DNA of 64,000 bases from positions 2,007,001 through 2,071,000 of the forward strand of contig NZ_CP050699.1 in assembly GCF_005116675.2 (NCBI RefSeq). The letters run 5' to 3'. A program made the position numbers and the translations under genes. The DNA is from Desulfosediminicola ganghwensis. Its GTDB lineage: Bacteria; Desulfobacterota; Desulfobulbia; Desulfobulbales; Desulfocapsaceae. Positions 59,989-62,108 of this stretch are shown here, piece by piece (position 1 is the stretch's first letter; each line of letters opens with the position of its first letter). The notes below the pieces were generated by a model, which did no database searches, was not told the origin of the DNA, and saw only the letters and a program-made list of their open reading frames with translations.

Positions 59989-60469
59989 GTTGGGGCCTAT
60001 TGGTGATATTGATCCGTTACGATCCTGACGCATTAATACATCATGTCTTCCTGGCCAGTTGATGTGTCAGGTCGCTCTAGTATTATAGCATTCTCCAAGT
60101 CGAGATTAGCAACATAAAGATGGGGTGAGATCGAGATGAAGACGGAACCCCAATTTGACGCTGAGCATTTTGAATCAGAAGTGCATGTTGTGCAAGTATA
60201 TGAAACTGCACAACAATATTGGTTTTTATGTGGAAGGTGAGATTTTGTTTTCTATGGTGTTAATCTTCTGTGATTGTACCGTCAAATCTCCGTGAATATT
60301 TTAATTGTTATTGCCGGGATGGTGATAACATACTAGATTCACGGCTAAAAGTATGATTACCGTTGTCAGGATATAGTCAGCTCAATCCCTCGTACGCACT
60401 GTACTTCGAGCTGGCTGAAAAACGGCCTCATTTCCCATTGGAAAGAAAACGCGAATTTTGGAGGAGACG
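59989..60469. other. Intergenic region with small inverted repeats
   Basis: No gene is supported. CAGCTC ... GAGCTG inverted arms stand around 60379-60414, about 60 bp before the next start. The low-GC stretch near 60290-60320 may hold a promoter for 60470, but no clear hexamers stand out. Confidence 0.4.
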
Positions 60470-61084
60470 ATGACAAGAGCTGTTGATCTGTCACACGTGG
60501 TGTTTATTGACTTACTGCAGAATCTGGTTGATACATCAGGCATCAAGGTGGCTAAAGGCAACCTCATGCGCATTGCCATGAAGGCCGGCCAGCAAGTTGA
60601 GCCGAGAGAGTATGAATCATTTGAGAAGTTGGTCGAGGCAATGGAAAATGGTGACACACCATTGTCAGCAATTGAAGGGAATGCAACTTACCTCGGTGAT
60701 GGGCTGTTTGGGCTGAAGTTGTGCCCTTTCGACAAGCTTGCACAAGATTATAAGAGCTATTTTGATAAGGAACCGGCTGGGTTGAAAGATCTAACCATTG
60801 AATTCAACACAGAGAATACCATGGCCAAAGAAATGAAAATAGGCCTGGGAGCGGGTGCAGGTCCTTTCTGTATTTTCCACCAGCCCATGAGGAGTCAGGC
60901 TGGGACAAATATCATCGTAGCTGGTAAATCGGTGGAGATCATCCAGCTTGCCTGCAGAAGCAGCAATGGTGAAAAGGCCTTTGCCCAGATCCTTATTTCA
61001 GAATATGGGTGTGATAAGGATAAAGTACTGAGCGTAATGGACAGTTACACCTGCTGCTACGGTATTCGTATAAAGGGTTCCTGA
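60470..61084 (+). CDS. Protein of unknown function, 204 residues, Cys-containing
   Basis: I do not recognise the family with certainty. The protein is soluble and mixed alpha-beta. Notable parts: LCPFDKLAQDYKSYFDKEP in the middle, GAGAGPFCIFHQPMRSQAGTNIIV in the second half, and YTCCYGIRIKG at the end. The C-P-F, F-C-I-F-H and T-C-C-Y groups could bind a metal or cofactor. GGAGGAG lies directly before ATG 60470, which is why the TTG at 60458 is not used. It is followed by the selenoprotein gene on the other strand. Confidence 0.7.
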   Translation: MTRAVDLSHVVFIDLLQNLVDTSGIKVAKGNLMRIAMKAGQQVEPREYESFEKLVEAMENGDTPLSAIEGNATYLGDGLFGLKLCPFDKLAQDYKSYFDKEPAGLKDLTIEFNTENTMAKEMKIGLGAGAGPFCIFHQPMRSQAGTNIIVAGKSVEIIQLACRSSNGEKAFAQILISEYGCDKDKVLSVMDSYTCCYGIRIKGS

Positions 61085-61133: not shown

Positions 61134-61751
61134 CTATCTGCGGAGCACCCCGTGCTGCAGCATGAGTCCCTGCAAGTTGCTATAGGCCTGGGCACCGACA
61201 AGTAAGGTGCTACCGAAAGTAAACGTAGGCACCGCAGTTATCTGCTGCTGGCGGGAGGCTTCCCAGTCCTCATCAACGGCGGTTGCGTAGCTTCTTGTGC
61301 GCAGTACCTCACTGGCCTCTTCGATGGGCAGATTACATGACTTGGCAAGGTCCAGGAGAACGTGCTGTTTGGCGAGGTTGCGCCCATCTGCAAAATATGC
61401 CTTAAAGGCTGCGAGGTGAAACTCCTCGCCCCGCCCGTTTTTCTCAGCCCATAGCCCAAGTTCCTGGGCGAGCCTCGAGTTGTAGGTTTTTGTTCGGTTG
61501 CCGAAAGGCAGCCCCAGCTGGTTTGCTGTGAGTCTCAGTTGGGTAACCATGCGATCAATCTGATCACTTCCGGTTTTAAAGAGTTCTTCCAGCAGTATAC
61601 CTTCATCAGGGGTCTCGGGATGCAGTGGAAAAGCGCGCCAGCGGATTTCGATCTGGTACTCATGTTTCAGTTGCTCAACACTTCCAGTGATGAAGTAGCA
61701 GTATGGTCAGACGTAGTCTGAGAATATCTGAAGAAGGGGTGGCATTGTCAT
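61134..61751 (-). CDS. DsbA/FrnE-family thioredoxin-fold oxidoreductase with predicted selenocysteine
   Basis: This 205-residue protein is read through an in-frame TGA at 61707-61709. From ATG 61751 it gives LLQIFSDYV, the codon U15, then PYCYF, so the CxxC site of the DsbA/FrnE fold becomes U-P-Y-C (15-18). Then EIRWRAFPLHPETPDEG, RLAQELGLWAEKNGRGEEFHLAAFKAYF and the cis-Pro loop TAVPTFTFGSTLLVGAQ (Pro175) follow as in the family. A frame starting at 61550 would lack the whole active site, so the TGA is best read as Sec. A hairpin lies 7-35 bases after it. The redox partner and substrate are unknown. Confidence 0.85.
61672..61700 (-). promoter_or_regulatory. Candidate bacterial SECIS hairpin after the UGA
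   Basis: On the minus strand TGCT-ACTTC, loop ATCACTG, GAAGT-GTTG-AGCA: a five-pair upper stem and a four-pair lower stem with a four-base bulge. It begins seven bases after the UGA, and its loop lies about 16-22 bases from the UGA, the usual position for SelB recognition. The pairing was done by eye. Confidence 0.6.
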
Positions 61752-61787: not shown

Positions 61788-62108
61788 TTACTCTTTTTGG
61801 GGTTTAACACTTCCCGGCTTGCCATTGACTACACGGCCGCAGCGACTGCAGTTTAGTATCAGCCGGGCATTGGCATAGCCGGCACCATATTCAGCTCCCA
61901 TGGTACCCACGCTGCCGCATAAGTCACAACGAGCAGGCATGGTGCTATTGTTGATGCGAATACCAATATAACCGCCAATCAGGGCGATGAGTGCAAATCC
62001 GGCGAGTGAAACCTTTTCGAATTCGGCCAGGTACAGGATGGCGAGTAAAAGCGCCAGGGCGGCAGCAGCGAGTCGTAACCAATAGAGTCGGATAAGGTTG
62101 ATATGCAT
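61788..62108 (-). CDS. Small membrane protein with C-terminal zinc ribbon
   Basis: This 106-residue protein has two hydrophobic helices at the N-terminus (LRLAAAALALLLAILYLAEF and SLAGFALIALIGGYIGIRI) and a zinc ribbon at the C-terminus: CDLCGSVGTMG and LILNCSRCGRVV. No family name could be given. ATG 62108 is chosen because the longer frame adds an unconserved segment. It is 36 bp from the selenoprotein start and may share its transcript. Confidence 0.65.
   Translation of the reverse strand: MHINLIRLYWLRLAAAALALLLAILYLAEFEKVSLAGFALIALIGGYIGIRINNSTMPARCDLCGSVGTMGAEYGAGYANARLILNCSRCGRVVNGKPGSVKPQKE

Follow-up and report, generated by a model that had tools for sequence, protein, structure and literature searches.

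A DsbA/FrnE-like gene of Desulfosediminicola ganghwensis is interrupted by an in-frame UGA at its presumed active site, and the question is whether this codon is read as selenocysteine (Sec) or marks a damaged cysteine gene. The gene lies in a stretch of 64,000 nucleotides, referred to as the window. The original prediction, made from the letters of the window, saw in it a thiol oxidoreductase with Sec as nucleophile and a hairpin for Sec insertion directly behind the UGA. In the window alone, a loose motif screen gives dozens of in-frame TGA codons whose flanks are open and whose surroundings loosely resemble a redox motif. Since such geometry arises commonly by chance, relatives were needed to decide on the UGA.

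Reading frame and protein

An ATG at position 61751 on the reverse strand is in frame with the TGA at 61709-61707 and with the downstream part of the gene, as had been predicted. Read-through yields a product of 205 residues with a single internal UGA, at codon 15, and a TAG stop (Table 1). The mechanical list of open reading frames contained only a piece of 138 codons from the ATG at 61550, with which the active site is lost. Initiation at this ATG, 3' of the UGA, was ruled out, because the relatives conserve the N-terminal strand and the active site.

Table 1 Features of the predicted Sec-containing DsbA/FrnE-like gene, in window positions
Feature	Position	Strand	Remarks
Sec-containing DsbA/FrnE-like gene	61134..61751	-	205 codons including the UGA, then TAG stop
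UGA codon for the predicted Sec15, opening the UPYC active site	61707..61709	-	
Cys18 codon, presumed resolving Cys of UxxC	61698..61700	-	Fourth residue of the motif; Cys in 102/102 loci
Pro175 codon of the conserved V-P loop	61227..61229	-	Invariant in the 15-row alignment; aligned with the VP of FrnE
Conserved SECIS-like hairpin	61674..61694	-	nt 16-36 counted from the U of the UGA; loop nt 24-28 (UGGAA)

The protein matched the Pfam family DSBA (PF01323) over residues 7-195 with 108.9 bits, against a gathering cut-off of 25.6 (E 3.6e-31). A match to the NCBIfam family NF041057 was far under its cut-off and was disregarded. In a phmmer comparison with FrnE of D. radiodurans (E 3.9e-16) the UGA stood opposite the first Cys of CPWC, and in an alignment of 15 rows it occupied the first-Cys position of CxxC; both alignments thus agree with the predicted site U-P-Y-C. 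V174, P175 and C18 were invariant in the 15 rows, and the V-P loop at Pro175 is presumably the cis-Pro loop of the thioredoxin fold. An N-terminal signal peptide was not recognized by eye in the protein, and the window protein lacks a C-terminal CX4C motif. The host genome, one contig of 5,653,142 bases, contained at E <= 0.001 a single match to the protein, which was the gene itself with one TGA inside.

Directly upstream of the Sec gene, at 61788-62105 on the reverse strand, a small protein is encoded that has, by eye, a hydrophobic stretch and a zinc-ribbon-like CxxC...CxxC part; it had no Pfam match. Before the Sec gene of D. flagellatus, too, a protein is encoded whose C-terminal end is very similar. 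On the other side, a gene of about 200 codons at 60458-61084 on the forward strand is convergent with the Sec gene and carries several Cys close to its end; its product had no Pfam match at E 0.001.

UGA and cysteine among the relatives

In whole-genome searches, 60 of 257 genomes from the class had matches, as had 79 of 395 genomes drawn from the phylum; both counts include the own genome. For the comparison 103 loci were assembled, the window's own included. They comprised all 10 relatives from a scan of one genome per species, which had been searched with six peptides, all from the part after the UGA; 64 of 65 rows from the class, the own locus among them; and 29 further rows from the phylum, the best-scoring of 81, so that the loci used are mostly best-scoring rows. 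One locus from a metagenome-assembled genome (L018) did not cover the site and was dropped. It has kept the middle of the gene and lost the Sec site and the usual C-terminal part, and is either degraded or misassembled.

At the site, the 102 remaining loci presented UGA in 91 cases, Cys in 11 and no other residue in any. Thus the comparison with FrnE/DsbA proteins that had been proposed as a check on the gene found either Cys or Sec at exactly this residue. The UGA-bearing relatives come from many families of the phylum. No further stop occurred within the match in 99 loci; the other three had one each, between residues 188 and 191 in matches 195-205 residues long and so near the C-terminal end. 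Among the other 51 of the 81 phylum rows, 38 contained one TGA by the count of the search tool and 13 contained no TGA. Of these 13, two were partial matches not spanning the site, and the remaining 11 are likely Cys genes. As dS was saturated, dN/dS was dropped and differences were counted by codon position instead: against the relative L028 there were 56, 44 and 130 at positions one, two and three, and the bias towards the third position was seen against all five relatives compared. One scan of viral contigs with the D. flagellatus protein (L009) revealed no viral relative.

A conserved hairpin downstream of the UGA

The RNA behind the UGA was compared in two alignments, one of 66 of the 91 Sec rows (after removal of 10 duplicate rows of 42 nt and of 15 divergent ones) and one of 8 of the 11 Cys rows (three distant ones were left out). 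In the Sec rows a small hairpin stood out in which nucleotides 16-23 pair with 29-36, with 20 and 32 left out; the alignment is free of gaps there. It has 7 counted pairs with one U-U mismatch between them, and its loop begins after a distance of 20 nt and lies 21-25 nt after the UGA. Pair 21-31 was UA in 58 and CG in 8 of the 66 sequences and broken in none, the window sequence being one of the CG cases; pair 22-30 was AU in 65 and GC in one. On the protein tree, pair 21-31 switched at least 8 times among the 81 Sec rows showing either of its two states.

Over the whole alignment 95.0% of the cells were paired, compared to a mean of 93.2% after shuffling, and none of 500 shuffles reached this value. 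The count of 9 cells with changes at both partners and the covariation score of 0.099 were likewise out of reach for all 500. Two pairs are changed on both sides, a number as high in 59 of 500 shuffles, and four further pair types occur, as many as all 500 attained; two of the five covariation measures therefore do not exceed the shuffles. Sliding the partners by +3 gave a higher covariation score (0.159), yet only 59.3% of the cells were then paired. The RNAalifold consensus recovered 5 of the conserved pairs at an energy of only -0.57. Of 76 main-group Sec genes, 75 had the upper stem in their local 21-nt minimum-energy fold, compared to none of 11 Cys genes, and in the eight nearest Cys genes the pairs 19-33, 21-31 and 22-30 each form in only two. 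By these alignments, compensatory changes maintain the hairpin in the Sec genes, and the Cys genes have lost it.

The 15 divergent Sec genes were considered separately. Four of them (L073-L076) form this upper stem out of quite different letters, while the other 11 do not: the stem was absent from the local folds of L077 and of a group of ten rows with the motif UPFCWLAEPA. The latter (L078-L084, L086, L087 and L089) form a second, distant Sec DsbA-like group with different local RNA folds 3' of the UGA.

The published model of the bacterial SECIS element, in the part of its description available (PMC13188914), has an apical loop of 3-9 nt, an upper stem of 4-16 bp, a G in the first two loop positions, 16-37 nt from the UGA to the loop and a minimum free energy of -7.5 kcal/mol or lower, and a subset of elements deviates from it. 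The conserved hairpin lies within the ranges for loop (5 nt, or 3 nt if U24-A28 pairs) and stem (7 pairs), has its G at loop position 2, and agrees with the model in its spacing of 20 nt. Its energy, in contrast, amounts to -4.7 kcal/mol for the 21 nt alone and -6.1 in a context of 37 nt, both short of the bound; with a further helix counted, 57 nt reach -7.7. Because of this energy, the element is described here as working like a bacterial SECIS and is not filed under the model. Around the gene, no known SECIS family of Rfam was matched.

Decoding machinery in the genome

Sec insertion by this route depends on genes outside the window, and the original prediction had proposed a search of the genome for selA, selB, selC and selD. 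Three of the four were present: tRNA-Sec (selC, 75.4 bits, anticodon TCA), selB (384.7 bits) and two selD genes over the cut-off (L091 and L092), both with a single in-frame UGA in the N-terminal region. For selA, there was neither a TIGR00474 match nor a PF03841 match over the cut-off in the genome sequence searched, which is partly masked as N. SepSecS and PSTK, which would stand for an archaeal-type Sec synthesis in place of selA, were not found in the genome either.

selA was matched in 72 of 93 genomes of the family; the genus has three genomes besides this one, and two of them are among the 72. In two relatives (L133 and L134) a 16S rRNA gene adjoins selA in divergent orientation; in another (L135) parts of 5S and 23S lie beyond a masked stretch adjoining selA. 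In many drafts no more than a few hundred bases separate selA from the end of a contig. The matching place in the own genome was reached via the gene two places downstream of selA, and there the match to the selA-neighbour gene breaks off 8 bases from a stretch of N. Since the syntenic place of selA runs into this masked stretch, absence is indistinguishable from concealment. The missing selA match is the chief finding against a Sec reading, and true absence was weighed; the masked stretch may account for the missing match, and, judged from gene order, selA is probably present and hidden there.

Alternative readings of the UGA

A Cys gene that a nonsense mutation has degraded, or a sequencing error has split, would yield the 138-codon downstream part or nothing at all. 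This is how the locus appears in the mechanical list, whose only frame is the 138-residue one from ATG 61550, and the missing selA match in the assembly sequence searched fits to it. The orthologues refute it. A chance lesion does not account for 91 of 102 loci, from many families, sharing a UGA at this very codon, with Cys as the one other state, nor for matches that are free of further stops in 99 loci and otherwise stopped once, close to the end; the random stops of a decaying gene were not encountered. The residues N-terminal to the UGA are conserved, and the conservation of the site together with the divergence at third codon positions speaks against pseudogene and sequencing error alike, so we give this explanation a negligible chance. 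Hardly better placed, and in our estimation extremely improbable, is a reading of the UGA as something other than Sec, by genome-wide reassignment to Trp or Cys or by near-cognate suppression. The frame by itself demands read-through alone, which such decoding would also provide, but the genome encodes a tRNA-Sec with anticodon TCA, selB and two selD genes that carry UGA codons themselves, the alternative residue at the site is Cys and not Trp, and the downstream hairpin is kept in the genes with UGA and not in those with Cys.

It is a different matter whether Sec is inserted with the aid of the hairpin originally predicted, whose loop lies about 16-22 nt behind the UGA. This hairpin is indeed the minimum-energy fold of the own sequence and, in a 37-nt context, at -6.5 kcal/mol lies 0.4 kcal/mol ahead of the conserved hairpin with its basal helix (-6.1). 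Against it, 169 of 200 shuffles of the 53 nt from 61712 to 61660 folded at least as well (z +0.94), and among the 66 distinct relatives 74.9% of its cells were paired (74.8 on average in shuffles) and its covariation score did not differ from the mean of the shuffles, whereas for the conserved hairpin neither the paired percentage nor the covariation score was reached by any of the 500 shuffles. As the SECIS element it was ruled out on these comparative grounds, and we regard a role for it as very unlikely. Of the prediction that a SECIS element follows directly on the UGA, the position behind the codon and a hairpin covarying in the Sec genes have stood; the element is another one, with its loop further downstream.

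The preferred reading is the decoding of the UGA as Sec. The gene product is almost certainly a single-domain thiol-disulfide oxidoreductase of the DsbA/FrnE type, its UGA being decoded by way of SelB, tRNA-Sec and the SECIS-like hairpin. The idea of a Sec-dependent thiol oxidoreductase has thereby gained support from the UGA and Cys relatives, from the hairpin and from selB and selC, while Sec insertion and activity are predicted from the genome.

Sec and Cys in the history of the family

A tree of 101 rows, built by a quick method without L086, which was too short, demands at least three changes between Sec and Cys. Most of the rows used have the Sec state. Of the Cys proteins, six form a clade and two a pair, both placed amid Sec rows; the three others are very distant and lie away from the rest. 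Three pairs of loci had identical proteins, and the protein of D. flagellatus is identical to that of a genome classed in the same genus. Three genomes (G117, G156 and G158) each contain a Sec copy and a Cys copy. Tentatively, and with rather less than even confidence, these rows may be seen as a phylum-wide clade in which the FrnE-type enzyme usually carries Sec and only in a minority Cys, and in which a minimal, low-energy SECIS, short of the published energy bound, is kept by synonymous or conservative codon changes. The coexistence of Sec and Cys copies in at least three genomes would make a direct test of the contribution of Sec possible. With its relatives the locus makes up a clean collection of Sec and Cys forms, in part from one and the same genome, useful for asking what Sec does in FrnE-type enzymes; the hairpin, supported by covariation and not by energy, can serve to calibrate SECIS prediction.

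Structure, function and known relatives

The AlphaFold2 model, calculated from 15 sequences, had a pLDDT of 94.4. Its best match in the PDB was FrnE (5coh; Z 27.8, 202 residues, 1.9 A, 29% identity). The next structure matches were to SCO1869 and, lower down, to HCCA isomerase, kappa GST and DsbM. In the mechanism we propose, SelB and tRNA-Sec would decode the in-frame UGA as Sec, aided by the small SECIS-like hairpin 20 nt 3' of it. Sec15 would act as the attacking selenolate and Cys18 as the resolving thiol, and the catalytic cycle would pass through a Sec-Cys selenylsulfide. The protein is probably cytosolic, since by eye a signal peptide is not apparent. By analogy to the role proposed for FrnE of D. 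radiodurans it may serve as a disulfide reductase, and as the protein has no C-terminal CX4C, its regeneration would need an outside reductant.

The FrnE group is the one classified as COG2761. Enzymes of this kind with Sec are known, as the original prediction stated: UxxC forms of DsbA-like proteins have been in print since 2005, when 9 sequences of COG2761 were described from the Sargasso Sea (PMC1088965, in the part available). As far as the accessible text of the later reports goes, 63 sequences of 'DsbA 1' (pfam01323, UxxC) followed from the GOS data (PMC2398784), a 'DsbA-like protein form 1' (PF01323, UxxC) is named in PMC13188914, and a DsbA-like selenoprotein is listed for several anaerobes (PMC1794560). 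Set side by side by description in these texts, the published proteins have in common with the window gene PF01323, the UxxC motif and a predicted bacterial SECIS after the UGA. The host itself is rich in selenoproteins. According to the available part of the deep-Sep paper (PMC12013277), D. ganghwensis IMCC35004 has 40 known selenoprotein genes and D. flagellatus 43, sets which exceed the largest bacterial one previously known; a Sec enzyme is therefore to be expected here rather than surprising. Supplementary lists aside, DsbA is unnamed in the main text of that paper as available, and a literature search on selenoproteins of Desulfosediminicola and of the FrnE and DsbA type, over the text accessible, did not find the gene named in print.

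The closest characterized counterpart is FrnE of D. radiodurans (DR_0659, PDB 5cnw/5coh). FrnE proteins are described, in the accessible portion of PMC8945050, as predicted to be cytoplasmic, with a disulfide reductase role proposed for DR_0659. The window protein shares with it the full-length fold, the position of the CP(W/F)C site and the V-P loop. The two differ in the active site, where FrnE has the two Cys of a CxxC and the window protein has Sec in the place of the first, and in the C-terminal CX4C of FrnE, which the window protein lacks. This motif is not universal, as FrnE of S. roseofulvus is also without it (PMC8945050, same portion). From sequence and model, the window protein would thus be expected to work like FrnE, as its Sec variant.
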